Positions 8,491 to 31,323 of a stretch of DNA of 33,161 nucleotides are shown here, one piece after another. A program made the translations under genes and the position numbers. The DNA is from Acidimicrobiaceae bacterium (GTDB taxonomy: Bacteria; Actinomycetota; Acidimicrobiia; Acidimicrobiales; Acidimicrobiaceae). The notes beneath the pieces are model-generated. The model did not search any database. It was not told the origin of the DNA and saw only the letters and a list, made by a program, of their open reading frames with translations. Within the stretch, counting starts at the first letter, position 1. Each line of letters begins with the position of its first letter. The DNA is taken from the NCBI GenBank assembly GCA_013044385.1, contig JABEUN010000030.1, forward strand, positions 1 through 33,161, given 5' to 3'.

Positions 8491-8710
8491 ACCCGTCAAC
8501 ATTAAGTGCATTGTGCCGTGCCAACTGACAAGCCATCGAGGTTTCAAGTGACGAGCCTACGGGCAAGGCGGTTTACTGTCAGCAAACCTCTCTTTAGTTG
8601 TGGCTATGTAGGCCCAAAAAAATCTGGGGTCAAATCTCGGATGAAATGTGCGAGGGCGAGTGGACCTTTAGACAACCTGGGCAAGCCTCGGAATAACCGG
8701 ATGTCCGCCT

Positions 8711-8756
8711 TGTTAGAACTATATACTGATAACATGTTAGAACTTAGTTCTGATAA
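8711..8756 (+). promoter_or_regulatory. Tandem Fur-box-like operator of the metal-transport/fur operon
   Basis: Two 22-bp direct repeats, 8711-8732 and 8735-8756, match at 18 of 22 bases. Both begin TGTTAGAACT and end CTGATAA, with a 24-bp period, just over two helix turns. The second contains the perfect palindrome AGAACTtAGTTCT (8739-8751). The first is framed by TGTTA/TAACA (8711-8715 and 8730-8734) and includes a -10-like TATACT (8722-8727). Placement over the promoter of an operon that encodes a Fur-family protein suggests autorepression. Confidence 0.65.
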
Positions 8757-8761
8757 GAGCC

Positions 8762-9700
8762 TTGAGAAATGATCGGATTGCAGTGTTGGTCGCAGTATTG
8801 AACCTTTGGAACCCGCACGGTAGTTTCACAGTCGGTGGAGCCGTCCTGCTCGCATTCGCCCTCGGTATGGTGCACGGCATCACGCCAGATGAACACACTT
8901 GGCCGATCACGTTCAGTTACTCGATTGGCAGTGGATCTTCACGGAAGGGTTTGATTGCAGGTCTCATCTTTTCGTTAGCCTTCACCCTGCAGAGAATGAT
9001 TGCATCTGAGCTCGCTTATTTTTCGCTCGCTAATTTTTTGGTATCCAGACCTTGGGTGAACTACCTCATATATGTAGTGGTCGGTGTGGCGATGGCCTGG
9101 GCGGCGAAGTACCTCTTTCGTGGAAATCACTGGCACCTTCTTAGCCCATCACATCACCTAGATGAGATAGTTCAAGGAGACAAACTTGCCGATCCAAAAC
9201 CGTGGATGCCGGCTCTGCACGGCTTCATAGCGGGCTGGGGTGTGGGTGCATTTGCACTGATCATCTACACGGTCCTTTCGCCGCAGATGCCATCGGCCGC
9301 GATAGGTTGGCTACCTGGTGCGGCATTCGGCCTCGGCACTACGGTGGTTCAGATGCTTGCAGGTGCCCTCTTCGGGTATGTCGCAAGGCGTAGTCACCTT
9401 GATGCCGGCGATATCAGGAAGGTCTCGCTCGTTACTGCGGGACGGACCCTACTAATTGGAGGAGTCGCGTTCACAGCCGCAGGACTTCTCGGTCTCGTGT
9501 TTCCAGGGGTGGTAGGTGCATCGGTGGGAACTGGCCTCCATATCCACAACCTTGCGAGATTTGGCATAACTCAAGTACTTGTCATAGGGGTAGTGATCGT
9601 CGTCGGAATCGGAACACTGGTGTCCACCACGCGCGCAGTTATCAAGGTCAAGAAGGTGCCTTCGGGGAGAGACCTCGAAAGTGATAGGCAGCTGCCGTGA
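8762..9700 (+). CDS. Multi-pass membrane protein, probable Ni/Co- or other metal-transport (NicO/UreH-like)
   Basis: 312 residues with about seven to eight hydrophobic helices. Near the N-terminus, GMVHGITPDEHTWP has the histidine-acid-histidine pattern (H-x4-D-E-H) that resembles the HX4DH signature of nickel/cobalt transporters and the NicO/UreH group. Other possible ligands are the H-rich loop GNHWHLLSPSHHLDE (about 121-135) and GLHIHNLARFG near the C-terminus. The direction of transport and the metal are not shown by the sequence. The TTG start at 8762 is weakly supported; GTG at 8783 is an alternative. The stop overlaps the start of the Fur-family gene by four bases, so the two are co-translated, and Fur-like boxes precede the operon. 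That context is the best argument for a metal substrate. Confidence 0.65.
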   Translation: MRNDRIAVLVAVLNLWNPHGSFTVGGAVLLAFALGMVHGITPDEHTWPITFSYSIGSGSSRKGLIAGLIFSLAFTLQRMIASELAYFSLANFLVSRPWVNYLIYVVVGVAMAWAAKYLFRGNHWHLLSPSHHLDEIVQGDKLADPKPWMPALHGFIAGWGVGAFALIIYTVLSPQMPSAAIGWLPGAAFGLGTTVVQMLAGALFGYVARRSHLDAGDIRKVSLVTAGRTLLIGGVAFTAAGLLGLVFPGVVGASVGTGLHIHNLARFGITQVLVIGVVIVVGIGTLVSTTRAVIKVKKVPSGRDLESDRQLP

Positions 9701-10170
9701 CACAGAACCTCGAAGATCCGGTCGAGCTTCTGCTTGAAGTTCTTAGGAAAGGCGGGCACCGTGTTACGAGTGAACGGGTTGAAGTATTCGGCCATCTGCT
9801 GGGAGTGCAACGCCCGACCACCAGAAGTGAGATCGCAACTGAGATGAGAGGGAAAGGTATCCACGCACCCACGGTTTACAGGACTATTGACCTGTTCGTT
9901 GCCCTTGGCGTGATCCAACCTATGTCCTCAGTTTCAGGTGATACCACCTATGAGCTGCTCCCACCGTTTGCCTCTCACCACCACCACTTCCGCTGTTTAC
10001 GCTGTGGGGTGACATTGGCTATAGACGCCAAAGCGGAGGAGAAGGTGCTGCGCGATATGGAGGACGGCCTTCCAGGCGTGCCCCTTTACCATCAGATGGA
10101 CATCTTCGGGAACTGCTTCAAATGTCTTGAATCCCTCGCCGCCACGGCAGCGCCATCGATTGGCCGTTGA
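9697..10170 (+). CDS. Fur-family metal-responsive repressor
   Basis: 157 residues with the Fur layout: N-terminal winged helix (RVTSERVEVFGHLL, then HAPTVYRTIDLFVALGVI as recognition region) and a C-terminal metal-binding dimer domain. HHHHFRCLRCG (94-104) gives regulatory histidines and the first CxxC (Cys100, Cys103). The second CxxC is Cys140/Cys143, completing a structural Cys4 zinc site. Whether it senses Fe, Zn, Ni or Mn cannot be told from sequence. The GTG start at 9697 overlaps the TGA of the transporter gene (GTGA), so the two are coupled. The protein probably binds the tandem boxes at 8711-8756 and represses its own operon. Confidence 0.88.
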   Translation: MTQNLEDPVELLLEVLRKGGHRVTSERVEVFGHLLGVQRPTTRSEIATEMRGKGIHAPTVYRTIDLFVALGVIQPMSSVSGDTTYELLPPFASHHHHFRCLRCGVTLAIDAKAEEKVLRDMEDGLPGVPLYHQMDIFGNCFKCLESLAATAAPSIGR

Positions 10171-10962: not shown

Positions 10963-12414
10963 CTACCTTGTTGTGGACTTCTCGATCAAGGCACCAAGGT
11001 CGGGGTCCACCTGTCGCCAGTAGTTGATGGCCCTAGCTTTGACATCGCTCGAAACACCGTTAGACAGATGGACCAGAATGTTCTCGACGAGCCGGTCCTT
11101 GGCTCCTTGGTCCATCACCTTACGGTACAGATCTCCTGCTTGGCCGAAGTCGTCATCCTCAGCGTGGAGGGTGGCCGCCGTTCTAAGGATCTCTCCGTCT
11201 GATTCCCATCCGATTTCGTAGATTCTGTCGTCGGCAGCGGGTCCTCCGTATGAGTTAGGTGCATATACCGGCGCAGCTCCGTTGTTGTCGTAGCGCATTG
11301 CGCCGTCCTTGTTGTAGCTGTTCACCGAACTCTTGGGGTGGTTGATTGGCAGTTGAGCGTAGTTGGTTCCAATTCGGTACCGGTGTGCATCTGGGTAGCT
11401 TGCGATCCTCCCGAGAAGCATCCGGTCTGGACTGGCACCTATCCCGGGCACAAGGTTGGCCGGTTCGAAAGCGGACTGTTCTACCTCTGCGAAATAGTTC
11501 TCGGGATTGCGGTTGAGTACCATTTGCCCGACCCTGATCAGGGGGTAGTCCGAATGGGGCCACACCTTGGTTAGGTCGAAAGGGTTAAAACGGTAGTCAG
11601 CTGCATCCGCGAACGGCATTAGCTGTACGTATAGGGTCCAGGACGGGTGATTAGATGATGCGATCGCTTGGTGGAGGTCCCTTATGTGGAAGTCGGGGTC
11701 CTCGGTTGCCATGGCTTTCGCCTCGTCTGCGGTGAAGTTTGATATGCCTTGGTCAGTCTTGAAGTGATATTTGACCCAGAACTTCTCTCCAGAGGAGTTC
11801 TGCCAAGAGAACGTATGGCTCCCGTATCCGTTCATGTTGCGCCAAGTCCTAGGTGTTCCCCTGTCACCGAGGAGCCATGTCACCTGGTGTGCGCTCTCTG
11901 GAGAGAGGGTCCAAAAGTCCCACTGCATGTTGTTGTCCCGGAGATGTGTGTCGGGAAGCCGTTTTTGGGAGTGGATGAAGTCCGAGAACTTCTGCGGGTC
12001 TCGAATGAAGAAGACTGGCGTGTTATTGCCGACCAGATCGTAATTTCCCTCCCGAGTATAGAACTTGATTGCGAATCCCCTCGGGTCTCGCACTGTGTCT
12101 GCGCTGCCTAGTTCGCCCGCCACAGTGGAAAACCGGACGAACAGCTCGGTCCTTGTTCCTGGCTGAAGGAAGTCGGCGCGAGTGAATTGGCTGACGTCTT
12201 CGGACACCTCGAAAAATCCATGCGCTCCACCACCTTTTGCGTGGACAACCCTCTCGGGCACCCGCTCGCGGTTGAATTGGGCCATCTTTTGGAGAAGGTA
12301 GTGGTCGTGTAGAACGATTGGCCCGTTCGGCCCGACAGTAAGTGAGTGGCTATCGCTTGTTGCGGGTATGCCAGCGTCAGTGGTTGAATATTGTCTGTTG
12401 TCTGTCATGGTCAT
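10963..12414 (-). CDS. katA: Monofunctional haem catalase (small-subunit type)
   Basis: 483 residues, the usual size of small-subunit (clade 3) catalases, which turn hydrogen peroxide into water and oxygen in the cytoplasm. The active-site signature [16 protein letters not shown] carries catalytic His58. The distal asparagine is Asn131 in VGNNTPVFF. The proximal signature [14 protein letters not shown] carries haem-ligand Tyr340. [29 protein letters not shown] is the standard core segment. No C-terminal flavodoxin-like extension is present. The ATG at 12414 overlaps the TGA of furA (ATGA), so catalase is the second gene of an operon controlled with its regulator. The gene looks intact and functional. 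Confidence 0.96.
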
Positions 12415-12884
12415 GCTCCTTTTTCTTCTACTAATTGATCATCGTCCGATGGAACGTCTGTCGCGCTCTGGCACGTCGGGCACAGTCCCCAATAGGTGAC
12501 CTCTGCCTCGTCGAGCAGGAAACCATGGGTGTCGGAGGGGTATAGGCAGGGTTTAGCGCCCACCGCACAGTCGACGTCTTGGATCATCTGACAGAGTCGA
12601 CACACAACGTGGTGATGATTGTCACCCACCCTGAGTTCATAAACTGCGGAACTCCCTGCAGGCTCAATCCGGCGTACGAGGCCCTTGGCCGTGAGCAAGG
12701 CGAGCGTGCTATATACGGCTTGAATTGAAACGGCTCCCAGCCGAATCCTAATGACGGAGATGATCGAGTCCGTGTTCAAATGTGGTCGATCCTGAAGCGC
12801 TTCAATGACTGCGACGCGCGGGGGAGTGGCCCTGAGACCGGACTCCCTGAGCAACTTCGCTGTGGCACCAACTTCTCTGGACAA
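12411..12884 (-). CDS. furA: Fur/PerR-family regulator linked to catalase
   Basis: 157 residues when started at TTG 12884, which has AGGAGA about seven bases upstream. A longer reading from ATG 12941 would run through the operator palindrome and adds an odd hydrophobic lead (MIFFFSRIILEII), so it is rejected. Winged-helix region: [14 protein letters not shown] and [20 protein letters not shown]. Metal-binding region: [12 protein letters not shown] (first CxxC, Cys95/Cys98) and GLCPTC (Cys135/Cys138), a Cys4 zinc site as in PerR, FurA and FurS. In actinobacteria FurA-type proteins repress an adjacent catalase gene and release it under peroxide. Position, overlap with katA and the palindrome ahead all fit that role; iron sensing is the alternative. 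Confidence 0.88.
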
Positions 12885-12907
12885 GGCGCTCTTCTCCTGC
12901 TCGATTA

Positions 12908-12928
12908 TTTCTAGAATGATTCTAGAAA
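12908..12928 (-). promoter_or_regulatory. Perfect 21-bp palindrome, probable FurA/PerR box
   Basis: TTCTAGAATgATTCTAGAA plus one further matching pair at each end gives a 10-1-10 perfect palindrome centred on 12918. It has the 7-1-7 layout of PerR/Fur boxes with its own bases. It lies 24 bases ahead of the preferred furA start. A second half-site, TGATTCTAGG, occurs at 12951-12960. A -10-like TATGAT on the minus strand (12942-12937) sits just upstream, so binding would block transcription. Confidence 0.75.
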
Positions 12929-13029
12929 AGAAGAATATCATATAAAAGAGTGATTCTAGGATAGGGACGCTAATAAAGTTTCAAGTTTGATCTGGAATCC
13001 TCCCTTTGCATCGTTTCTTCGTTGGTATC

Positions 13030-19978: not shown

Positions 19979-20005
19979 TTCGTGAGTTCAATGACGGGGG
20001 GATTT

Positions 20006-21307
20006 ATGAGGGGACTCAAAAATCGTGTATGGGGCGGACTAGTGACCGCATCGGTGCTGCTTGCTGCCTGTGGCAGTTCTACGAGTGCCAGTTCGGGAAC
20101 GTCCGGTTCTACATCGAAGGGAACCGCAACTATAGGCATGATTGCCGCATACACCGGAAATCAGGCCTTTGAGGCAGGGTTCACGGATTCCGGGGCGTTT
20201 CCAGCAGTATGGGCCATCAACAATGGTGGTGGGATTTTAGGGTATAACGTGGTTGCCAAACCAGTTGATACCAAGAGCGATCCGGCGGATGCCCTTACTG
20301 CTGTCGAGCAGATGCTCGGTACGACTTCCAACCTTCTTGGAGTCTCTGGCCCCGACTCGACCTCTGGGCCCACCGTTATACCGGTTCTCGACAAGTCGCA
20401 GATTCCAATGATGATCACGGCTGGAGAGGCCGCCTATGACCGAAGCCCCTACTCCTATTTGTGGAGGGATCTTCCCCCAGACCCAGCTAACGGAATAGCG
20501 ATGGCACTCTGGGCCAAGCAGCACGGCTATACCCGTGTTGCGACGGTATTCGGTACTGACTCAGGCTCGCAGGGCGACCTCCCTGGTGTGGTTACAGGCG
20601 TACAAAAGACCGGCATGAAGTTGGTTGCCCAGATCAATTTGACCCCGGATCAGCCGTCCTACCGCACAGAGGTAGAGCAGTTGATCGCCTCCAAGCCACA
20701 GGTCATCATGACTGAGACGGACGGTCCGACAGCTGCAACGTTCTATGGCGAGCTGAAGCAGCTCGGTACGATTGTTCCGATAATTGGTACTTCAGGGGTG
20801 CCGACGGATACCTACCTAAATCCGCTCCGCTCCGCTCTCGGCTCATCCAGTTTCAATCAGGATTTTGTAGCCGTCGTCGCCGGAACGCCGAATCCTAATC
20901 CTGCGGTCACGGCATTCAACAATGCGCTGACTCACGTCAAAGGGCAGTTACCAGCTCCGCTCAACCAGTGGCTGAGTAATCCATTCTCTGAGGCAGGATA
21001 CGACGCGCTGATCGCAATGGCCTTGGCGGCGAACGAAGCCGGATCAATCAAGGGGAGCGTGTATAACGCTGACATCATGAAAGTGACCAGTCCAGGAGCA
21101 GGGAAGACCGTCGTATACACCTACCCAGCTGGCGTTGCCGCAATAAAGGCCGGAAAGCAGATCCAGTATGTTGGAGCCTCGGGGCCCCTGCTCTTCAATC
21201 AGTATCACAATTCATATGGGGATCAGGCTGTTGAGTCTTTCCCTTCGGGAGTGGCACCGACGGTGGTTGGTACCATATCGGCCAAGTCGGTTGAAGCTGT
21301 CGGCTGA
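20006..21307 (+). CDS. Liv-type ABC transporter substrate-binding lipoprotein
   Basis: 433 residues from ATG 20006, chosen because GGGGGGA lies directly upstream and the predicted promoter precludes starts further left. Signal peptide with lipobox LAAC, Cys22, then a Ser/Gly tether, so the protein is anchored on the outer membrane face. The mature part is a Peripla_BP_6 / LivK-type type I binding fold: ATIGMIAAYTGNQAF at the first strand, NGGGILGYNV, VSGPDSTSGPTVIPVLDKSQIPMM and GYTRVATVFGTDSG. This family binds branched-chain amino acids, amides, urea or aromatic acids. With a gentisate pathway beyond the importer, an aromatic acid or a conjugate of one is a reasonable guess. A strong stem-loop separates it from the permease genes. 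Confidence 0.9.
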   Translation: MRGLKNRVWGGLVTASVLLAACGSSTSASSGTSGSTSKGTATIGMIAAYTGNQAFEAGFTDSGAFPAVWAINNGGGILGYNVVAKPVDTKSDPADALTAVEQMLGTTSNLLGVSGPDSTSGPTVIPVLDKSQIPMMITAGEAAYDRSPYSYLWRDLPPDPANGIAMALWAKQHGYTRVATVFGTDSGSQGDLPGVVTGVQKTGMKLVAQINLTPDQPSYRTEVEQLIASKPQVIMTETDGPTAATFYGELKQLGTIVPIIGTSGVPTDTYLNPLRSALGSSSFNQDFVAVVAGTPNPNPAVTAFNNALTHVKGQLPAPLNQWLSNPFSEAGYDALIAMALAANEAGSIKGSVYNADIMKVTSPGAGKTVVYTYPAGVAAIKAGKQIQYVGASGPLLFNQYHNSYGDQAVESFPSGVAPTVVGTISAKSVEAVG

Positions 21308-21319
21308 TCAATTGGTTGG

Positions 21320-21358
21320 CAGGTCGGGACTGGAGTACTGCTACTCCATCCCGACCTG
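21320..21358 (+). terminator. Strong stem-loop between the binding-protein and permease genes (attenuator-type)
   Basis: CAGGTCGGGA and TGGAGTA (one bulged C at 21330) pair with TACTCCA and TCCCGACCTG: 17 base pairs around a 4-base loop. It starts 12 bases after the stop codon and has no T-run. Such hairpins between binding-protein and permease genes lower downstream expression and protect the upstream mRNA, giving excess binding protein. Confidence 0.7.
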
Positions 21359-21411
21359 TAATTCAGTCCGGATTTGACTGACCGATCTAACAAGGAGAGG
21401 CGAAGAGCCAG

Positions 21412-22299
21412 GTGAGTATTTTCATAGCGTCATTGGGCTTTGGGCTGGTGACAGCTTCCATCATCGCTATTGGGTCGATGGGATTTACGCTACAGTTCGG
21501 ATTGACCAACGTTCTGAACATCTCCTTCGGAGCGATGATGACGTTCGGAGCGATGGGATCGCTGGTTGCCGAGAAGCTCGGTGCATCAATGTGGATTGTG
21601 GTGCTCGTGGCACCGATAGTTGGAGCCCTGGCTACAGTCGCTGTCGGGCGCTTGGTTTTCCCGATATTCTCCAGACGGGGGTCGGGTCTGTTTGAGATGG
21701 TTATGGTGACGCTTGCGATCGATCTCCTTCTCCAGTACCTAGTCGACGCCGTAGATCACGAACAGATATTCTCGTTCAATTTTCCATCCGGACACTCCTT
21801 TCACTTCGGCCCGATCGTGTTGACGGTTACGCAGCTTTCCATAATCGCTGGTGCAATTTTGCTCTTCGTGAGCCTGGAGTCGTTGCTTCGAAGAACTCGG
21901 CTCGGGAAAGCACTTCGGGCAATGGCGGGCGAGCCCCGACTGGCGAGGGCTTGTGGAGTCCCGACCGGCAGAATCGTCAACGTTACCTGGATCATAAGTG
22001 GGGCATTGGCCGGACTAGCGGGCCTCGTCTACATGATGAACTCACTTACGGTCGATGCGTTCACCGGCGCAAACTTCCTTCCATTCGTGCTGGGTGCCGC
22101 AATCCTTGGCAGAGCGGGTTCCACCGTTGGGGCCGTGGTTGCTGCACTTGCCATGGGGATGGCAACCGAGATTGCGGGTGCCTTCGGGGGGTCTGCCTAC
22201 TCTACCGTTGCGGGCTTTGCGCTTCTCGCGATTGTCCTTCTGACTAGGCCAAGTGGACTCATAGGAGACACTCTACTCAAGGAGGAGGTAACGCTGTGA
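21412..22299 (+). CDS. Liv-type ABC transporter permease (LivH family)
   Basis: 295 residues, about eight hydrophobic helices. It opens with IASLGFGLVTASIIAIGSMGFTLQFGLTNVLNISFG, the hallmark start of LivH permeases (G-x-T-L-x-x-G-x-x-N-x-x-x-F-x-G). The cytoplasmic coupling segment is RRTRLGKALRAMAGEPRLARACGVPTGRIVNVTWIISGALAGLAG, which contacts the ATPases. GTG start at 21412 with AAGGAGAGG ahead. It forms the membrane channel with the next gene. The usual family substrates are amino acids or amides, and the real one must be judged from context. Confidence 0.92.
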   Translation: MSIFIASLGFGLVTASIIAIGSMGFTLQFGLTNVLNISFGAMMTFGAMGSLVAEKLGASMWIVVLVAPIVGALATVAVGRLVFPIFSRRGSGLFEMVMVTLAIDLLLQYLVDAVDHEQIFSFNFPSGHSFHFGPIVLTVTQLSIIAGAILLFVSLESLLRRTRLGKALRAMAGEPRLARACGVPTGRIVNVTWIISGALAGLAGLVYMMNSLTVDAFTGANFLPFVLGAAILGRAGSTVGAVVAALAMGMATEIAGAFGGSAYSTVAGFALLAIVLLTRPSGLIGDTLLKEEVTL

Positions 22300-22332
22300 G
22301 CCAGCTCACCTGCGTCCGAATGACCGTCCAAT

Positions 22333-23415
22333 ATGACCAGTGTCCACCCTATTTGGGTGGAGTTCGAAACAGCGAGGACTGAAGTGTCGTTTTACCTTTC
22401 AACACTTGCCGTGTATTTCGGGATCGATCTTCTTAGTGCATGGTCGCTCAACCTTCAGTTTGGCTTCGCTGGCGTACCAAACTTCGCCTTTATAATCTTC
22501 CAAGCAGTTGGTGCGTATACAGCTGCGATACTCACCTTGGGTCCGGATACCGGAATCAACTCCTTCCAGCGCTACTTTTTCGGCGCATCGCTCCCTTACC
22601 CTTTTCCACTCATATTTGCGACGCTTGCAGGTGGGGCCCTCTCCTATTTGATCGGTTCGTTTTCACTAAAGCGCATGCGAAGGGACTATCAGGCAGCGGT
22701 ACTGCTTATCGTCTCTCTGATCGCAGTCCAGGTGGTCTCCACCGTCGTTCGCTTCTTGAATGGTTCGAACGGCCTCACAGGAATACCTAAACCATTCTCG
22801 GGCGTCTTGAATATATCGGTTGCGGCGTATCAATGGTCGTATGCGGCGTATGTCGGGGTCGTCTGCATCATCATCTACTTCATCTTGCGGCGGTTGCTCC
22901 GGTCAGGATGGGGAAGAGCCGTTCGAGCCGTGCGCGACCACGAAGATGCAGCTGCGACGCTTGGACTGAATGGCACAAAAGTGCGCATGCAGGTCTTCGT
23001 GTTCGGGGGAATGATCGCCGGCCTGTCCGGTGGACTTCTAGTGCAGTTTATCAATGCCTGGTCGCCAGCCTCGTGGAGTTACGCGGAGACCTTCGGAATC
23101 CTCACCGCTGTGATTATCGGTGGAGTTGCCAACAACAAAGGTGCCATCGTTGGCACTCTTCTTGTGCAGATCATCTTCCTGCAACTTCCATCATTCCTGC
23201 CCCAAATTGGCTATCCGGGCCTGACGGCAGCGCTGCAGTGGGTAGTGATCGCTTCTATATGGCTGATCTTTATGGCCGTGAAACCACGGGGAATAATCCC
23301 TGAAGCGCGATACAAGGTCAAGCAACCGAAGGGTCTGATCACCCACGAAGGGGACAAGGCTGAGCAGTTACTGGCGAATCTTGCTGCGGGTGAGAAGGAC
23401 AGGGTGGCAAAGTGA
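22333..23415 (+). CDS. Liv-type ABC transporter permease (LivM family)
   Basis: 360 residues with about eight to nine hydrophobic helices. LSAWSLNLQFGFAGVPNFAFIIFQAVGAYTAA corresponds to the conserved LivM opening (N-L-x-x-G-x-x-G-x-x-x-x-x-x). The coupling segment is RSGWGRAVRAVRDHEDAAATLGLNGTKVRMQVFVFGGMIAGLSGG. A charged C-terminal tail (about 315-360) is cytoplasmic. A GTG at 22296 overlapping the previous stop reads only a short frame, so ATG 22333 is preferred. It pairs with the LivH-type permease. Confidence 0.92.
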   Translation: MTSVHPIWVEFETARTEVSFYLSTLAVYFGIDLLSAWSLNLQFGFAGVPNFAFIIFQAVGAYTAAILTLGPDTGINSFQRYFFGASLPYPFPLIFATLAGGALSYLIGSFSLKRMRRDYQAAVLLIVSLIAVQVVSTVVRFLNGSNGLTGIPKPFSGVLNISVAAYQWSYAAYVGVVCIIIYFILRRLLRSGWGRAVRAVRDHEDAAATLGLNGTKVRMQVFVFGGMIAGLSGGLLVQFINAWSPASWSYAETFGILTAVIIGGVANNKGAIVGTLLVQIIFLQLPSFLPQIGYPGLTAALQWVVIASIWLIFMAVKPRGIIPEARYKVKQPKGLITHEGDKAEQLLANLAAGEKDRVAK

Positions 23416-24164
23416 ATCTCCTGGAGATCGACAATCTCGATGTCACCTTCTCAGGTATCCATGCAGTAAGGGGGGTGTCTCTCAAGGTGGAACCGGGGGA
23501 GATAGTTGGCATCATCGGGCCAAATGGTGCGGGAAAGTCCTCATTGCTTGGTGCCGTCGGTGGTCAACTCCCTGTCACGGGCGGTCGGATTTCGCTTGAT
23601 GGAACTGATATCACCCACGCGAAACCAGATCAGAGGGCACGTATCGGCCTCTCACGTAGCTTCCAGACTACGAGTGAATTCGCTTGGATGACGGTGTTCG
23701 AAAACCTTGCAGTCTCAGGGGCGGGGTACAAAGGGGCTTCCTTTCTGGGTGCTCTCATCGGTGGTAAGGCTTTCAAAGAGGCTGAGATGAAGAATGTTGA
23801 GCGAGTTTGGGAGGTCCTCTCCGAATTCGACATGATAGATATGGCCAACTCCTTTGGTCGGGAGCTCAGTGGTGGACAACGAAGACTCGTTGAACTGATG
23901 CGCTGCCTGATGCAAAAGCCGAAGATCATCCTTCTGGATGAGCCAATGGTTGGAGTCGCACCTCACCTAGTTTCCAGAATTGGGGACGAGTGTCTCCGAA
24001 TCAAAGACTCCGGAGTGGCGCTCGTCCTAATCGAACATGCACTCGAAGTTGTGGAGAGACTGTGCGATCGGGTAGTGGTCATGGCTGACGGAGCGGTGAT
24101 CGCTGAGGCGACTTATGCCGAGGTTATGAGTTCCGGGGCGGTTCGATCTGCCTACCTGGGCTGA
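23412..24164 (+). CDS. Liv-type ABC transporter ATPase (LivG family)
   Basis: 250 residues. Walker A is GPNGAGKSS (36-44), Q-loop region SRSFQTTSEF, signature LSGGQRR, Walker B KIILLDEP followed by MVGVAPHL, and switch histidine in LIEHALEVVERL. The Q-loop SFQ and the C-terminal VVVMADGAVIAEATYAEV fit LivG. It powers import with the LivF partner. GTG start at 23412 overlaps the permease stop (GTGA). An extra loop at about 103-118 (GAGYKGASFLGALIGG) lies where LivG proteins carry their usual insert. Confidence 0.93.
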   Translation: MNLLEIDNLDVTFSGIHAVRGVSLKVEPGEIVGIIGPNGAGKSSLLGAVGGQLPVTGGRISLDGTDITHAKPDQRARIGLSRSFQTTSEFAWMTVFENLAVSGAGYKGASFLGALIGGKAFKEAEMKNVERVWEVLSEFDMIDMANSFGRELSGGQRRLVELMRCLMQKPKIILLDEPMVGVAPHLVSRIGDECLRIKDSGVALVLIEHALEVVERLCDRVVVMADGAVIAEATYAEVMSSGAVRSAYLG

Positions 24165-24192
24165 TGGGAAACTCGTGATGGAGGAGAGTGAC

Positions 24193-24960
24193 ATGACCAA
24201 TGCGGCTTTCGAGGGCCTTGACTCACCAGTTCGGGTAGCGCCGAGTCTCGTCGCCAACGATCTCACAGCCGGCTACAAGGGACACGCGATCATTCATGAC
24301 GTTTCACTCCAGGTAGGTCCCGGTGAAGTTGTACTTGTGGTGGGACCGAATGGCGCGGGCAAGAGCACTCTGGTGAAATCCATTAACGGCGAACTCGGTC
24401 TGATGTCCGGGAGTGTCGAGTTCTGCGGGAAGAGAATAGAGCACCTGGCGGAGGAGAAGCGGGCGGCGCTGGGGATCGGCTACGTGCCTCAGGTGAGGGA
24501 TGTGTTTCCCCTACTGTCGGTTCGAGAGAACTTGGAGATCGGCGCTTATCGTCTCTCGCAGAAGGCAGCAAAAGAACGGGTCGAGGTCGTTATGGACGAG
24601 TTCCCGCAACTCCGTGAGTTGGCAAAGCGACAAGCAAAACAGCTGTCTGGTGGCCAGCGCAAGCTAGTTGGAGTTGCCCGGGCTCTGGTTGCGGATCCCG
24701 ACCTGTTCATGCTCGATGAACCGACTTCGAATCTCTCCCCCGGTGTGGCGAAGCAGGTTCTGAATGAGGTCGTCGGAGCTCTTGCTTCGGCTGGTCGGTC
24801 CCTTCTTCTGATCGAGCAGCGTGTGTCGCTTGCCCTCGAGGTTGCCACCTGGGTTTATGTGATGGTGGACGGGAGAGTCAGGTTTAACGGTTCGGTCGAG
24901 GAGTTTAGTTCCCGCGATGACATGGCGACGCTCTTCTTCGGCACGGTTGGCGGAAGATAG
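24193..24960 (+). CDS. Liv-type ABC transporter ATPase (LivF family)
   Basis: 255 residues from ATG 24193, chosen for GGAGGAG six bases upstream; GTG 24175 and ATG 24178 are also in frame. Walker A GPNGAGKST, the LivF-like GYVPQVRDVFPLLSVRENLEIGAY, signature LSGGQRKLVGVARALVADPDLFMLDEP with Walker B, then TSNLSPGVAKQVLNE and LLIEQRVSLALEVATWVYVM. It is the second ATPase of the importer and the last gene of this operon. It converges on iclR with 64 bases between stops and no clear terminator. Confidence 0.93.
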   Translation: MTNAAFEGLDSPVRVAPSLVANDLTAGYKGHAIIHDVSLQVGPGEVVLVVGPNGAGKSTLVKSINGELGLMSGSVEFCGKRIEHLAEEKRAALGIGYVPQVRDVFPLLSVRENLEIGAYRLSQKAAKERVEVVMDEFPQLRELAKRQAKQLSGGQRKLVGVARALVADPDLFMLDEPTSNLSPGVAKQVLNEVVGALASAGRSLLLIEQRVSLALEVATWVYVMVDGRVRFNGSVEEFSSRDDMATLFFGTVGGR

Positions 24961-25024: not shown

Positions 25025-25837
25025 TTACTCCTCTCCCACGACGTGGGTTGAGTCGTATCTAGTCATTCCTGAGTTCAACAGAGTCTCGATCATGCGGGCA
25101 GAGTCCCTAAGGGCGGGGAGTATCTCGTCTCTTACGGAGGTCCTTGTTAATCGGAATGACGGAGCGGCTACCGCTATCGCTGCGACAGGCCTTCCGGTGG
25201 AGTCGGTGATACTTACTCCAGCTGCGGAGATCCCGTTGTCTCCCTCTTCTTGGTTTAAGGCGTATCCGAGGTGCCTCACGGTCTCTAGCTCGGCCTCTAA
25301 TTCGTCCCAAGTGGTAATAGTATTTGGCGTTCTTAGCTTTAGATTTTTGCCTGGGTACCTGCGAAGCAACTCGTCAATAGGCAGGCATGCAAGTATTGCT
25401 TTGCCTCCCGATGAACAGTGTGCTGGCAGTACTAGGCCTACCCGAGATGCAACCCGAACCGCTTGTGGACCTTCGAGAGAATCGAGGAAGTGCACCTCGT
25501 TTCCCTTTAGCGACATTAAGTTGACGGTCTCTTTGAGTCGACTCCTCAGGTCTTCCAAGATGGGTCGCGCCGCTGCCCGAATATCGATTCCACCAGACGC
25601 CGCCAGCGCCAATTCCTGTAGCGTTGGGCCGACCAGATATGGACTTCCTCGGTGCTCTTGGACTGCGTATCCGAGTTTCTTGAGGGTGGCTAGGAGTCGG
25701 TGTGCCGTAGACGGTACGACTCCGATTATTTCGGCCGCTTCATTGACTCTCAAGGATCGGCGATCAGCCAATGCTTCTATGAGTTTCAAGGCGTGTTCGG
25801 CAGCGTTGACTACTCCGTCTCGATCATCATTCGTCAC
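25025..25837 (-). CDS. IclR-family transcriptional regulator
   Basis: 270 residues. The N-terminal winged helix has LKLIEALADRRSLRVNEAAEIIGVVPSTAHRLLATLKKLGYAVQ (about 17-60). The C-terminal effector domain has ILEDLRSRLKETVNLMSL, HCSSGGKAILACLP and GYALNQEEGDNGISAAGVSITDSTGRPVAAIAVAAP, all IclR landmarks. IclR proteins often control aromatic catabolism by binding the substrate or an intermediate. It starts at GTG 25837, divergent from the first gentisate-pathway gene with 51 bases between starts, and converges on the importer. It is the obvious regulator of the pathway and maybe of the importer. Confidence 0.93.
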   Translation of the reverse strand: MTNDDRDGVVNAAEHALKLIEALADRRSLRVNEAAEIIGVVPSTAHRLLATLKKLGYAVQEHRGSPYLVGPTLQELALAASGGIDIRAAARPILEDLRSRLKETVNLMSLKGNEVHFLDSLEGPQAVRVASRVGLVLPAHCSSGGKAILACLPIDELLRRYPGKNLKLRTPNTITTWDELEAELETVRHLGYALNQEEGDNGISAAGVSITDSTGRPVAAIAVAAPSFRLTRTSVRDEILPALRDSARMIETLLNSGMTRYDSTHVVGEE

Positions 25838-25888
25838 AACGGAATGTTAACACAAAATCTTGCGCACTTGCGAATGAAAGGGAAGTTG
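25838..25888. promoter_or_regulatory. Divergent promoter/operator region of iclR and the gentisate operon
   Basis: Only 51 bases separate the two start codons. It holds the perfect 8-bp palindrome TGTTAACA (25845-25852) and the direct repeat CTTGCG-ca-CTTGCG (25859-25872). Both promoters must overlap here, so one bound IclR dimer could govern both directions. Confidence 0.45.
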
Positions 25889-27130
25889 ATGACTTCAAAT
25901 AGAGGCTTTTCGGATAGTCCGGTTGCGGTTATTGGCGGAGGGCCAGTCGGGATGTGTGCAGCCATGGTACTTGCATCCAAAGGCATATCGGTGACGGTCT
26001 ATGAGGCTAATCCGAAGCCTATGCCGGACTGGCGTGCGTCTACATTTCACGCGCCAACACTAGAGCTCCTCGATCGGATCGGTGTTGCTGGTCCCATGCA
26101 TGAGGAGGGATTGGTCGTTCCTCGATACCAGTTCCGTGATCGGAAGGTGGGCTTGGTAGCCGAGTACGATTTCAGCCTGTTGGCAGACGAGACACCGTTC
26201 CCGTATCGACTTCAACTGAATCAGCAGCGCCTTGTAGCGATTCTTTTTGGAATGTTGTCAAAGATGGACAATGTGGAGCTCAGATTTGGCTGTCGGATCA
26301 CATCAATTGTGACCGATCAAGCCGGTTCCAAGTTTGAGTATCAGGACGCTGCGGACGGTTCGATGTCCTCAGTTGAGGCGAGATTTGTGATAGCTGCCGA
26401 TGGTGCTCGAAGTTCTGTTCGCTCCCTCCTTGAGATTCCTTTCGATGGAATCACCTACCCAGAGCGGTTTCTGATAATAAGCACCCCGGTAGAGATGGGC
26501 GATCTGATTGAACGTCTTGCGCCCGTCAATTACATTGCCGATCCGGAGGAATGGCTCTTCATTCTCCGGACTCCTGAGTCATGGAGAGTCCTTTGGCCAG
26601 TCCCTGAGGGGATTACTGATGATGAGGCGCTCTCCGATTCGCAGATCGAGGCCCATCTTCAGGGAGTTGCACCCCGTTCTGAGCCATATCCGATACTGGA
26701 TTCGCAGATCTATTCAGTTCATCAGCGGGTAGCTGAGAGATTCAGGCAGGGATCGACTGTGCTTGTGGGTGACGCTGCGCACATTAATTCCCCGGTGGGT
26801 GGGGTTGGTCTGAACAGCGGCATACACGATGCATTTGACATTACGGAGCGGCTAGCCCGGGTGATCATCGATGAAACTGATCAGGAGCTGGAACTCGATG
26901 CCTTCGAGACCATCCGGAGGCGGGTGGCACTTGAATACGTGCAGGCGGATACGGAGCGCAATACCAGGCGGCTACGAGAGAAAGACGAGGTCCAGCGAGC
27001 TGTGAATATCGAAGAGATGCGAGCGCTTGCCTTTGATCTTGATGCTCAGCGGAATTACCTCAGACGGGTCTCGCTACTTGAGAGCTTTAGGCGTTTTGGA
27101 ATCGGCCTGCCCGTAGAAGAAGCGGTTTGA
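25889..27130 (+). CDS. FAD-dependent aromatic-ring hydroxylase (PheA/TfdB/MhpA-like group)
   Basis: 413 residues from ATG 25889, with AAGGGA ahead; the same frame is open further left into iclR but that is not used. FAD-binding: AVIGGGPVGMCAAMVLASKGISVTVYEA (dinucleotide fold), RASTFHAPTLELLDRIGV, the DG motif FVIAADGARSSVR and the GD motif VLVGDAAHINSPVGGVGLNSGIHDAF. It should use NAD(P)H and oxygen to add a hydroxyl group to an aromatic ring. It lacks the C-terminal thioredoxin-like domain of the long phenol hydroxylases. The exact substrate, such as a hydroxybenzoate or an aromatic side-chain compound, is not shown. First gene of the gentisate operon. Confidence 0.85.
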   Translation: MTSNRGFSDSPVAVIGGGPVGMCAAMVLASKGISVTVYEANPKPMPDWRASTFHAPTLELLDRIGVAGPMHEEGLVVPRYQFRDRKVGLVAEYDFSLLADETPFPYRLQLNQQRLVAILFGMLSKMDNVELRFGCRITSIVTDQAGSKFEYQDAADGSMSSVEARFVIAADGARSSVRSLLEIPFDGITYPERFLIISTPVEMGDLIERLAPVNYIADPEEWLFILRTPESWRVLWPVPEGITDDEALSDSQIEAHLQGVAPRSEPYPILDSQIYSVHQRVAERFRQGSTVLVGDAAHINSPVGGVGLNSGIHDAFDITERLARVIIDETDQELELDAFETIRRRVALEYVQADTERNTRRLREKDEVQRAVNIEEMRALAFDLDAQRNYLRRVSLLESFRRFGIGLPVEEAV

Positions 27131-27167
27131 GTATGAGTGGCGAGATGAGGATCAGGTTGGTGATCAG

Positions 27168-28070
27168 ATGAGATTCTTCAGCTTTGGAGATCAGGGAGAG
27201 CGCATTGCTGTGCTTGTCTCAGATAGTGAAGCCGTCGAGTTGACCGGTCTTTTGCCCGGCGGTTTCACAGGTCAGTTGAGCCCGATGAGGCGAATGATAG
27301 AACGCTACGAATCACTCGTTCCAGAGATCGCTGCAAAAGCGGTCTCGGATGACCGAATTAAGATTGACGGGCTATCCCTGGCTCCACCTGTGCCGGATCC
27401 ATCGAAGGTCATCGCTGCGCCAGTGAACTATGTAGACCATATGGAGGAGATGAGTCAGGATAGCCACATAGATTCTCTCGGAGTATTTCTTAAGGCTCCT
27501 TCATCGGTACTTGCTGCCGGTGGCGTGGTGGGGCTGCCGTATACCGATAGGCGGTTTGACCAGGAGGGTGAGTTGGCGCTCGTGATCGGAAGGCGAGCAA
27601 GGAACGTTGCGGTTGCTGATGCGCTCCACTTCATCTTTGGTTACACATGCCTGCTCGATATAACAATGCGAGGCGGCGAGGACAGGTCAACAAGGAAGTC
27701 CTTTGATACCTTCACTCCAATGGGTCCATACCTCGTTACTGCGGACGAAGTTGGCGACCTTGGTTCGCTGGAACTGAAGTGTACCGTCTCTGGTGACCTA
27801 AGACAGAAGGTGATGATCGATGATCTCATCTGGGGCGTTCCTGAGCTCGTCGCATACGCGTCTTCAGTCATGACTTTGCTGCCGGGGGATGTGATTACAA
27901 CTGGAACCCCTAAGGGAGTCGGTCCATTGCAAGATGGCGATTCAGTAACTGTCGAGATCAGCCGGGTGGGTTCGTTATCGGTGCACGTCAGTGCTGACGG
28001 TGCTGGCCTCTCGCCTACAAAGGGCGCCAATCGTGGACCGGTTCCGCCTCCTGCGAAGGAGCGAGGCTGA
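27168..28070 (+). CDS. Fumarylacetoacetate hydrolase family protein, probable fumarylpyruvate hydrolase
   Basis: 300 residues. An N-terminal lid of about 75 residues is followed by the FAH fold starting SKVIAAPVNYVDHMEEM. Metal ligands appear as E133-x-E135 in FDQEGELALVIG and Asp164 in TCLLDITMRG; His91 could be the catalytic base. SFDTFTPMGPYLV and LLPGDVITTGTPKGVG are conserved family segments. Given the gentisate dioxygenase and maleylpyruvate isomerase next to it, it most likely splits fumarylpyruvate into fumarate and pyruvate. Direct hydrolysis of maleylpyruvate or another acylpyruvate is the alternative. The ribosome binding site is weak. Confidence 0.88.
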   Translation: MRFFSFGDQGERIAVLVSDSEAVELTGLLPGGFTGQLSPMRRMIERYESLVPEIAAKAVSDDRIKIDGLSLAPPVPDPSKVIAAPVNYVDHMEEMSQDSHIDSLGVFLKAPSSVLAAGGVVGLPYTDRRFDQEGELALVIGRRARNVAVADALHFIFGYTCLLDITMRGGEDRSTRKSFDTFTPMGPYLVTADEVGDLGSLELKCTVSGDLRQKVMIDDLIWGVPELVAYASSVMTLLPGDVITTGTPKGVGPLQDGDSVTVEISRVGSLSVHVSADGAGLSPTKGANRGPVPPPAKERG

Positions 28071-28136
28071 ACACGTAGGGGATATCGCAGCCAGGTGAGC
28101 CGGGTTTTAGATGCGAGATTGAAAGGGAGATAGAAG

Positions 28137-29198
28137 TTGGTTGCTAAGCGGTTCTTTGCGCCAGATGAGTTCGAGAACAAGGCTGAGGTAGACGAGTTCT
28201 ACAAAATGGTGGCGGAGAAGGATCTCCAGCCCCTGTGGACACAGAAAGGTTTGATGCTCGGGGAGCCGCCAATTCGTGACATTCCGTTCCATTGGAGATG
28301 GAGTGATATCAAGAAACTTTCAGAGCGGTCTGGCGAGCTTATTCCAATAGATCGTGGAGGGGACCGGCGAGTGCTGTCCCTTACAAATCCAGGTCTTGGG
28401 GGTCTACCTTATGCTTCGACGACCTTATGGGGGGCGATCCAGTACCTGGGTCCGCGGGAAGTTGCCCCAGCGCACAGACATAGTGCTGCAGCTCTGAGAT
28501 TTGTGGTTGAAGGAAGTGGAGTCTGGACGCTGGTAAATGGTGATCCGGTAGCGATGGAGCCCGGTGATCTTGTCCTGACTCCGAACTGGACATGGCACGA
28601 GCACCACAACCCAGGGGACACGCCAATGATGTGGTTTGACGCGCTCGACCTTCCATTGATCAGATCAGTCGATGCGCTGTTCTACGAGGATGGTCCCGAC
28701 CTCATGGTCAACCGTCTGGTCGATGCGGTTTCCAGTTCAGAACTCGAATTTGGTGGCGGCGCCGGACTAGTGCCATTTGACATGGAGGATGAGCAGCCTA
28801 ACCATTCACCGCTACTCGCTTTCAGATGGAAAGACACAGATAGAACGCTTGAGTCGTTGCTGTCACGGAGGCAGGATGGGTACGCAGCACTTCGATTCTC
28901 AGACCCAACGAATGGTAAAGATGTGATGCCCACGATGCGATGTTCGATGCATCGGGTAGCCGCTGGGTCGGAGATCTCTCCGAGGCAGACGACGGGCTCC
29001 TCGATCTGGCTGACCTTCGCAGGTTCGGCGAGAGTTTCAGTAGGTGAGTCGGAGTTTCAGTTGGAGCACGGAGATCTGTTTGTGGTTCCAAGTTGGGCGA
29101 GCATGGCGTTGTCTGCAAATGAGCAGACCGATCTTTTCTGCGTCTCAGATGCCCCTGTGCTTGAAGCTCTGGGCCTTATGCGCCAGCGGAAGCTTTAG
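28137..29198 (+). CDS. Gentisate 1,2-dioxygenase
   Basis: 353 residues, the usual length for this bicupin enzyme, which opens the ring of gentisate (2,5-dihydroxybenzoate) between C1 and C2 to give maleylpyruvate. The N-terminal cupin carries Fe(II) ligands His113 and His115 in REVAPAHRHSAAALRFVVEG and His154 in PNWTWHEHHN. PLWTQKGLML and IPFHWRW are family-typical leads. The second cupin (about 240-345, MRCSMHRVAAGS, FAGSARVSVGESEFQLEHGDLFVVPSW) seems to lack a full His triad, as usual. TTG start at 28137 with GGGAGA upstream. A related salicylate or 1-hydroxy-2-naphthoate dioxygenase activity cannot be excluded, but the isomerase gene next to it favours gentisate. Confidence 0.92.
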   Translation: MVAKRFFAPDEFENKAEVDEFYKMVAEKDLQPLWTQKGLMLGEPPIRDIPFHWRWSDIKKLSERSGELIPIDRGGDRRVLSLTNPGLGGLPYASTTLWGAIQYLGPREVAPAHRHSAAALRFVVEGSGVWTLVNGDPVAMEPGDLVLTPNWTWHEHHNPGDTPMMWFDALDLPLIRSVDALFYEDGPDLMVNRLVDAVSSSELEFGGGAGLVPFDMEDEQPNHSPLLAFRWKDTDRTLESLLSRRQDGYAALRFSDPTNGKDVMPTMRCSMHRVAAGSEISPRQTTGSSIWLTFAGSARVSVGESEFQLEHGDLFVVPSWASMALSANEQTDLFCVSDAPVLEALGLMRQRKL

Positions 29199-29310
29199 GA
29201 ACTCGAATGGATCCCATTGAGTGGTGCGAAGAGTTGGGCCAAATGACACTAAGACTCAGGGTCGAATGTGAAATTCGGCCTGGTCTGACGATCTCCGGGG
29301 AGCTGTCGTA

Positions 29311-30018
29311 ATGGAGAAGGATCTGGTACTTAGCCGAATGGCATGGATGGACATGGGTGAAGCTGCGTTCGAGACTGAGTTTGCAAAGCTTGGCGAGTTG
29401 CAATTGAGTACTCCCAGCTTGTTGCCGGACTGGTCGAAAGCGATGTTGGTCTCACATGTGAACGGCAATGCCACCGCTCTGACGAATCTATGTGTCTGGG
29501 CCCTGACTGGGGTGGAGACACCCATGTATCCGAGTCCTGAGTTTCGAGCGAAGTCGATTGCAGGAGGCTCAATGGCCAGTTTTAGTGATCTCCTGAATGC
29601 GTTTCGTAGCACCTCTGCCGAACTTAGAAGGCATATCTCAAGCCTTACATCGCTGGATTGGACTGTTGAAGTGAGAACAGCACGAGGTCGACAGGTCCAA
29701 ATGAGCGAAGTGCCACTAATGAGGGCGCGTGAGACATGGATACACCTTTTCGATCTCGGGACGGGAAGGTCTCTATCAGAGATGCCTGATCCCCTGTTCG
29801 AGATCTTGTTTCGTGAGGGAGTCGACTCGCTTCCACAGAGGTCTGGTGGAAGAGCGTTTTCAATCGAGATCACTGGCGGTGAAGTGCTCGAAGTCGCTGG
29901 GGTGGATGAACCTGTAAGAGTTCGAGGTGATGCCTCTGACGTGCTTGCATGGCTGCTTGGTAGGGGTGGAAGTCTTGAGATCACAGACGCTGAGGTGAAT
30001 CTAGGACCGTGGCTGTGA
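29311..30018 (+). CDS. Mycothiol-dependent maleylpyruvate isomerase
   Basis: 235 residues, DinB-like N-terminal domain plus a C-terminal alpha/beta domain. The zinc ligands are His49 (LVSHVNGNA), Glu141 and His145 (RARETWIHLFDLG). Their spacing equals that of the Corynebacterium glutamicum enzyme (His52, Glu144, His148, as I remember it). The family landmark ALTGVETPMYPSPEFRAKSI (66-85) is present. The enzyme turns maleylpyruvate into fumarylpyruvate with mycothiol as cofactor, so the host should be an actinobacterium. GGGGAG lies ahead of ATG 29311. The 112 bases before it hold no gene. Confidence 0.92.
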   Translation: MEKDLVLSRMAWMDMGEAAFETEFAKLGELQLSTPSLLPDWSKAMLVSHVNGNATALTNLCVWALTGVETPMYPSPEFRAKSIAGGSMASFSDLLNAFRSTSAELRRHISSLTSLDWTVEVRTARGRQVQMSEVPLMRARETWIHLFDLGTGRSLSEMPDPLFEILFREGVDSLPQRSGGRAFSIEITGGEVLEVAGVDEPVRVRGDASDVLAWLLGRGGSLEITDAEVNLGPWL

Positions 30019-30060
30019 CTGAATACCTGAAGTTCTGTGATTTTGTGGAAGGGAGTCGCG

Positions 30061-31323
30061 ATGGGCGACGGGAATTGGATCGGTTCTGGCTCGCAGGAGG
30101 CCGGCGTAGCGATCGTCGGTGCTGGTATAGCGGGCCTCACGCTCGCTCTTCAACTCGACTCCGTCGGGATAGCTTCGACAGTCTTTGAGGCAGCTCCGGC
30201 TGTTGAGCCGCTGGGTGTCGGCATTAACATCCTGCCCCATGCCTCACGAGTGCTATGTCTGCTAGGCCTTGAATCACCTCTGCTGGAGAAGTCCATTGCG
30301 ACAGCAAATTCGGTCTTCTATAACAGGTTCGGCCAGCTCATCTACTCCGAGCCGCTCGGCAGGGCGGGCGGCTATGAGTTCCCTCAATTCTCCATCCATC
30401 GAGGAGACCTGCAAGAGGTCCTGTTGAAAGCTGCAATTGAGCGGCGGATACCCATTGAATTGGGTCATAAGGTGACCTCGGTCGATCAAGATCATAAAAT
30501 TGCCACGCTCCATTTTGATCAGAAGTCAGCCCCGGTCCCCGATAGGACGGCTTCAGTAGTAGTTGGCTGCGATGGTATTCACTCCGTGCTGCGTAAGCAG
30601 TTGCACCCGGCCGAGGGGGATCCAAGGTATTCCGGCGTGAATATGTGGCGGGGTGTCACTTTATGGCCGAAGATTCTAGATGGAGCATCGATGATCAGGG
30701 CCGGCTGGCTCACGACAGGGAAGATGGTCATCTACCCAATCCGAGACAGTGTCGACGAACAGGGACGCCAGTTGATCAACTGGGTGGCAGAACTCGAAAC
30801 CGATAGGTATAGAAGGAGAGACTGGTCGCGGCCTGGTTCGCTCGACGACTTCGCCGGCTCTTTCGCAAACTGGCAGTTCGACTGGATGGACGTTCCAGCG
30901 TTTCTCGACGCCTCAGAAGAGGTGCTCGAGTATCCCATGGTAGACCAAGATCCGCTGAGTACTTGGACCGACCGCAGGATCACTCTATTAGGGGACGCCG
31001 CACATCCAATGGTGCCTCGAGGGTCAAATGGCGCTGGTCAGGCGATACTCGATGCCAAGTGCCTCTCGGACTGTCTAGTCCAGGAGGAAAGCTTAGAAGC
31101 GGCACTTGCGAGATATGAGTACGAGAGGTTGGCGGCAACATCAAAGGTTGTCCTTACGAATAGGGTCAATCCACCGGATATCATTCTCAAGATTGTGGCG
31201 GATCGGACGGGTGACAGGCCGTTCGACCGGATCGAGGACGTGATATCCGAAGATGAACTGAAGTCGATCTCCGATTCGTACAAGTCGATAGCGGGATACT
31301 CAAAGGAGCGGTTAGCAGGGTGA
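30061..31323 (+). CDS. FAD-dependent monooxygenase, probable salicylate/3-hydroxybenzoate-type hydroxylase
   Basis: 420 residues from ATG 30061 with GGAAGGGAG ahead. FAD-binding: VAIVGAGIAGLTLALQLDSVGIASTVFEAAP, then GVGINILPHASRVLCLLGL, the DG motif VVGCDGIHSVLRKQL and the GD motif ITLLGDAAHPMVPRGSNGAGQAILDA. Residues DGIHS, GDAAHPM and the RGSNGAGQA loop place it in the salicylate hydroxylase / 3-hydroxybenzoate 6-hydroxylase / PhzS group. A 5- or 6-hydroxylase making gentisate would fit the operon. The last 80 residues (VNPPDIILKIVADRTGDRPFDRIEDVI) are typical of PhzS-like enzymes. It is the last gene of the operon, and a strong stem-loop follows. Confidence 0.88.
   Translation: MGDGNWIGSGSQEAGVAIVGAGIAGLTLALQLDSVGIASTVFEAAPAVEPLGVGINILPHASRVLCLLGLESPLLEKSIATANSVFYNRFGQLIYSEPLGRAGGYEFPQFSIHRGDLQEVLLKAAIERRIPIELGHKVTSVDQDHKIATLHFDQKSAPVPDRTASVVVGCDGIHSVLRKQLHPAEGDPRYSGVNMWRGVTLWPKILDGASMIRAGWLTTGKMVIYPIRDSVDEQGRQLINWVAELETDRYRRRDWSRPGSLDDFAGSFANWQFDWMDVPAFLDASEEVLEYPMVDQDPLSTWTDRRITLLGDAAHPMVPRGSNGAGQAILDAKCLSDCLVQEESLEAALARYEYERLAATSKVVLTNRVNPPDIILKIVADRTGDRPFDRIEDVISEDELKSISDSYKSIAGYSKERLAG

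Follow-up and report, generated by a model that had tools for sequence, protein, structure and literature searches.

A predicted autoregulated metal-uptake operon, most likely for zinc, behind tandem inverted repeats in an Acidimicrobiaceae genome

In the 33,161-nucleotide stretch of DNA analysed here (the window), two near-identical repeats stand before a gene for a polytopic membrane protein and a gene for a Fur-family regulator. Which metal does this pair handle, in which direction would it be carried, and are the repeats the operator of the regulator? A preliminary description had proposed an operon with operator-like boxes over its promoter and had compared the membrane protein with nickel/cobalt transporters, leaving open which metal is carried. 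The first part is borne out by a conserved footprint in related genomes; the comparison with nickel and cobalt did not stand. The prediction that the locus is an autoregulated operon for metal uptake has good support, and the metal is probably zinc. Taken as a whole, the reading that it is such a module for zinc and replaces ZnuABC-Zur in this family is one to which we give somewhat better than even chances.

The tandem boxes and the operon

The features of the operon are collected in Table 1.

Table 1. Features of the operon and its upstream region (window coordinates)
Feature	Position	Strand	Sequence or support
Possible -35 of ECF-like promoter (putative role)	8690-8694	+	GGAAT, of GGAAT-N16-TGTT
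Candidate -10	in first repeat (8711-8732)	+	first TGTT of the repeat, 16 bp after GGAAT
First 22-bp repeat	8711-8732	+	TGTTAGAACTATATACTGATAA; core box 8713-8729 TTAGAA-CTATA-TACTGA
Second 22-bp repeat	8735-8756	+	TGTTAGAACTTAGTTCTGATAA; core box 8737-8753 TTAGAA-CTTAG-TTCTGA
Polytopic membrane protein ORF, candidate metal importer, DsbD_2-like	8762-9700	+	Pfam DsbD_2 3.3e-7
Fur-family regulator ORF	9697-10170	+	Pfam FUR 2.7e-12; best solved match S. coelicolor Zur

As described earlier, the repeats immediately precede a membrane-protein gene that is joined to a Fur-family gene, the two ORFs overlapping by 4 bp (GTGA, 9697-9700). The membrane ORF may start at TTG 8762 or at GTG 8783, and alignment with its relatives makes 8783 the likelier start. 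The repeats have the 24-bp period previously noted and agree at 18 of 22 bases (82%), and the second holds the perfect dyad, AGAACT-T-AGTTCT at 8739-8751. Both have the 6-5-6 inverted-repeat layout TTAGAA-N5-TNCTGA. In 300 first-order Markov shuffles of positions 8600-8800 the best pair of 22-mers agreed at 16 of 22 bases, short of the observed pair, which occurs only here in the 2.82-Mb genome. When the genome was searched with the pattern of the preliminary description, allowing up to 3 mismatches, exact matches were found only at the two repeats and the next best had 2 mismatches. Single 6-5-6 sites are not rare (46 genome-wide at up to 2 mismatches, against 67 for a reversed control), so the signal lies in the tandem pair and its conservation, not in the single dyad. 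A wider regulon for TTAGAA-type boxes was rejected: apart from the window pair, nearly all of the 15 best-ranked match loci examined (up to 2 mismatches) were intragenic.

The same operon, with both boxes and the same 24-bp period, is present in four other species of the genus, where the second box is a perfect TTAGAA-N5-TTCTAA. Across the five species 70% of the alignment columns are invariant over the 46 bp of the boxes, compared with 3% over 76 bp lying upstream of them and 15% from the boxes to the start. In the related genus g7 (two genomes) a single box is kept, TTAGAA-TTTAT-TAC(T/C)AA. No sigma-70 consensus promoter was found upstream of the operon, and no RNA elements or tRNAs were found. 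The element GGAAT-N16-TGTT (8690-8714), which is at the same position in 8 of 8 related genomes compared from three genera, looks like an ECF-sigma promoter whose -10 would overlap the first box; boxes so placed would be suited to repression.

Elsewhere in the window, translations of the genes at 25025-31323 read as an apparent aromatic-acid (gentisate-type) degradation cluster, comprising an IclR-type regulator, two FAD monooxygenases, a fumarylacetoacetate hydrolase-like protein and a cupin dioxygenase-like protein. Beside it lies a branched-chain amino-acid-type ABC transporter (19982-24960).

The membrane protein and its regulators across bacteria

The sole Pfam match of the membrane protein was DsbD_2 (PF13386), at 30.9 bits against a cut-off of 24.9. 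It spans residues 88-224, covering part of the profile and the middle of the protein only, and 23 of 45 relatives also match. Among the residues that vary little or not at all are H31, D36, E37, H38, E76, H118, H146 and H255 (GTG-start numbering), a list that is biased in its HGITPDEHTWP part because this motif was used in the search for relatives. No conserved Cys pair was found among the invariant positions, and the prevalence there of His, Asp and Glu rather than Cys suggests transport, not electron transfer. We consider it very unlikely that the protein is a metal exporter, or a non-metal protein (e.g. DsbD/CcdA-like redox), that is merely Fur-regulated. Such a role would account for DsbD_2 as the only Pfam match, it would suit the metal-rich mine waters that record titles suggest as the habitat of many relatives, and activation of an exporter is known for S. 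coelicolor Zur (PMC11077047). The missing Cys pair argues against a thiol-redox function, however, the boxes overlap the putative promoter as repression would need, and import fits the replacement of ZnuABC.

The preliminary description was right that HGITPDEHTWP differs from the motif of classical nickel/cobalt transporters. There was no Pfam NicO match in the window protein or in the relatives examined, and profile comparison with three NicO proteins gave a probability of 0.3% and no similarity, so that no kinship with NicO/NiCoT proteins is detectable. Profile searches found neither a solved homologue nor an internal repeat. An AlphaFold model (mean pLDDT 85.8), considered for a LysE-type, ZIP or CcdA fold, had no Foldseek match at E <= 0.001, and its best structural Z, 8.1, was to an unrelated helical protein. 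No paper on this transporter family was found in the open-licence literature searched, and the family appears uncharacterised.

In a bacterial genome collection we found 356 stretches related to the membrane protein, many of them, by their record titles, from acid mine drainage and other acidic sites; the operon occurs mostly in acid-loving bacteria. No plasmid homologues were found. Of 109 homologous loci, 68 have a Fur-type gene adjoining the membrane gene (downstream in 19, upstream on the same strand in 39, divergent in 10); the set counts a few genomes twice and includes loci that end before the neighbouring gene. No other neighbour recurs nearly as often, which agrees with the operon as first proposed. 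An importer encoded with its own Fur-type repressor is a known kind of operon.

In a tree, the linked Fur proteins fell into at least four clades: true Zur, grouping with S. coelicolor Zur (100/99); genus g3 with Thermotogota; the window protein together with Sulfobacillus proteins (99/97), adjacent to those of small-genome bacteria; and one highly divergent group. Operator boxes track these clades. Boxes resembling TGAAAATNATTTTCA, which we take to be an actinobacterial Zur-type box, precede g3 and Thermotogota homologues (9 of 109 loci, background 0.5%). Those in Sulfobacillus and small-genome bacteria are TTGCAA-N5-TTGCAA (34 of 109 at up to 2 mismatches, background 2.3%), and those in the genus of the window are TTAGAA-N5-TTCTAA (10 of 109, background 0.7%). 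With one transporter, several Fur clades and operators that change by clade at fixed geometry, the module gives direct access to the question of how specificity evolves in the Fur family.

These comparisons bear on whether the repeats belong to the adjacent regulator. They might instead serve another factor, or be a promoter feature only: the conserved ECF-like element overlaps the first repeat, and the occupancy of the repeats by the Fur protein is itself a prediction. We regard this as highly improbable, given that promoters of homologues paired with several Fur types also have inverted repeats of the 6-5-6 layout, whose sequence shifts clade by clade while the geometry stays constant. The best reading of the repeats is that they are the operator of the adjacent Fur protein.

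Membrane-gene homologues are also present in genomes of 0.6-1.0 Mb (L058, L106, L079, L093 and similar, several labelled Saccharibacteria), where in most cases a Fur gene points the other way and TTGCAA-N5-TTGCAA lies in the gap between the two. A TTGCAA-box regulon in Sulfobacillus and others was considered and dropped; exact sites were few per genome and those read were without clear metal genes, the sole site at a metal gene lying inside the coding sequence of an Nramp in a 0.6-Mb genome and being judged chance.

Which metal

The window regulator exceeds the Pfam FUR cut-off (47.3 against 23.1 bits), and it matches S. coelicolor Zur at about 1e-10 (1.1e-10). It keeps the Zur D-site (H84, H86, E105, H122; the Glu is not present in every relative), the four-Cys structural site and the M-site His pair (H85, H87). 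By alignment, the other two of the four M-site ligands are replaced (D65 by Q, C79 by L). A Synechococcus Zur is also without the M-site (PMC11077047), so these losses do not exclude zinc sensing by the window protein. Four Fur-family genes were found in the host genome, namely that of the operon, one for a Nur, a PerR-like gene close to rubrerythrin and one linked to catalase. There is no other Zur candidate among the four, and the window protein would therefore fill the vacant place of Zur. The Nur (best solved match 3eyy, 8e-30) has the Nur-type histidines and is encoded directly behind a two-component system (L174, 4016-4468). The catalase gene lies directly behind its Fur-family gene, with a 4-bp overlap, on the minus strand of the window (10963-12941), as a FurA/CatR-like pair that is also present in L205 (G004).

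The distribution of the membrane gene points to zinc. Across 42 genomes of the family, it was present in 25 and an ABC-3/ZnuB permease in 7, and the two were never found together; a partial hit of 25% identity in G012 was excluded from this count. Fisher tests gave p 7e-4 over the 42 genomes and p 0.01 within genus g3, values that ignore phylogeny, perhaps only two or three independent switches lying beneath the exclusion. In g3, an operon of metal-binding protein, ATPase, ABC-3 permease and Zur is found in four genomes, all without the membrane gene; in seven others the membrane gene is accompanied by a Zur-like gene and ABC-3 is absent. In four g5 genomes and in G038 the membrane gene follows a Zur-type gene; the one g5 protein tested matched S. 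coelicolor Zur (3mwm) at 2.5e-32, against 5e-15 for its best non-Zur match. It is the presence of Zur in both the g3 ABC-3 operons and the g5 module that makes them a pointer to zinc. In the genome of the window no ABC-3 match was found. Among 30 distant genomes with the membrane gene, ABC-3 is clear in 6 or 7, and in the others absent or a weak match of 20-28 bits, compared with 13 of 14 control genomes with ABC-3.

Other observations tell against zinc. The window regulator is weakly Zur-like, falls outside the Zur clade and is without two M-site ligands. Its nearest relatives beyond the family, in Sulfobacillus, sit behind TTGCAA-N5-TTGCAA. The 6 or 7 distant genomes in which the membrane gene and a clear ABC-3 coexist also count on this side. 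Genus g4 has a window-type Fur alone, with neither ABC-3 nor the membrane gene. There (L175-L179) the orphan gene is flanked by genes for a TPP enzyme and an aldo/keto reductase, and no shared box was seen upstream of the g4 orphans.

Nickel was the reading favoured first. The operon would then take up nickel (or cobalt) under a Nur-like sensor, and the membrane protein would feed Ni-SOD and urease, both of which the host genome encodes; NicO and CbiM were searched for in that genome and not found. In addition, the TTGCAA-N5-TTGCAA of the Sulfobacillus and small-genome homologues is the Nur-box consensus (PMC3919588). This reading was demoted because a separate Nur was found in the host and because the membrane gene and ABC-3 exclude each other, and the nickel/cobalt comparison of the preliminary description goes with it. 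Moreover, an alignment with 3eyy showed that the window regulator is without the nickel ligands of Nur (H33, H70 and H72 in 3EYY numbering). NicO and the membrane gene show no tendency to exclude each other, being found together in 8 genomes, those g4 genomes that have Ni-SOD are without the membrane gene, and no TTAGAA-type box was found near sodN or in the urease region of the host. We now hold uptake of nickel to be unlikely.

That the operon serves to take up manganese or ferrous iron, with a sensor of the Fur/Mur type, is decidedly unlikely in our view. Regulators of the window clade share a conserved Glu in a YEL..P motif, at the position of the site-2 Glu of E. coli Fur, and the best match of the Sulfobacillus protein is a Fur. 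ABC-3 permeases can also carry manganese, so their exclusion alone does not separate manganese from zinc. It is again the Zur genes of the g3 ABC-3 operons and the g5 module that argue for zinc over manganese or iron.

On the zinc reading, the regulator loaded with metal, most likely zinc, would bind as dimers to both 6-5-6 boxes over the promoter and repress both genes of the operon. Under metal shortage it would leave the boxes and the membrane protein would import the metal, the direction of transport that we infer from the replacement of ZnuABC. In this family of genomes the module would take the place of ZnuABC-Zur. A broader proposal, to which we give an even chance, is that the membrane protein represents a new family of single-component zinc importers which has replaced ZnuABC more than once, is paired with at least four types of Fur regulator and with Zur-like, TTGCAA or TTAGAA operators, and is widespread in acidophiles and small-genome bacteria. 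Bacterial zinc import has two firmly established routes, through ABC systems (ZnuABC) and through ZIP proteins. Import of zinc by this family would add a third, hitherto unrecognised, in hundreds of acidophile genomes, and would allow many annotations as 'hypothetical' or DsbD-like to be corrected.

Comparison with known systems

The module would resemble the znuACB-zur operons of actinobacteria in that a zinc-type Fur regulator is encoded with its own importer, and in this family the distributions of the two are mutually exclusive. It differs in having a single polytopic protein in place of a three-part ABC transporter, a regulator from another Fur clade, and boxes of the form TTAGAA-N5-TTCTAA. 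With the Nur box of S. coelicolor the boxes share the 6-5-6 geometry, and those of the Sulfobacillus homologues equal its consensus (PMC3919588), but the window boxes are TTAGAA, the window regulator is without the Nur histidines, and a true Nur is encoded elsewhere in the genome.

Like NicO/NiCoT proteins, the membrane protein is polytopic with an early His/Asp motif (HGITPDEH, compared with HAFDADH), although the spacing of the motif differs and there is neither domain nor profile similarity. The likeness to DsbD_2 is above the Pfam cut-off, yet it is limited to the middle of a protein whose invariant residues are His, Asp and Glu, not Cys. Single-component zinc import under Fur-family control would have a parallel in FurC-zupT of Cupriavidus (cited in PMC6103462). 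Unlike ZupT, the window protein has no ZIP domain match, and the structural likeness of its model to BbZIP is weak and within noise.
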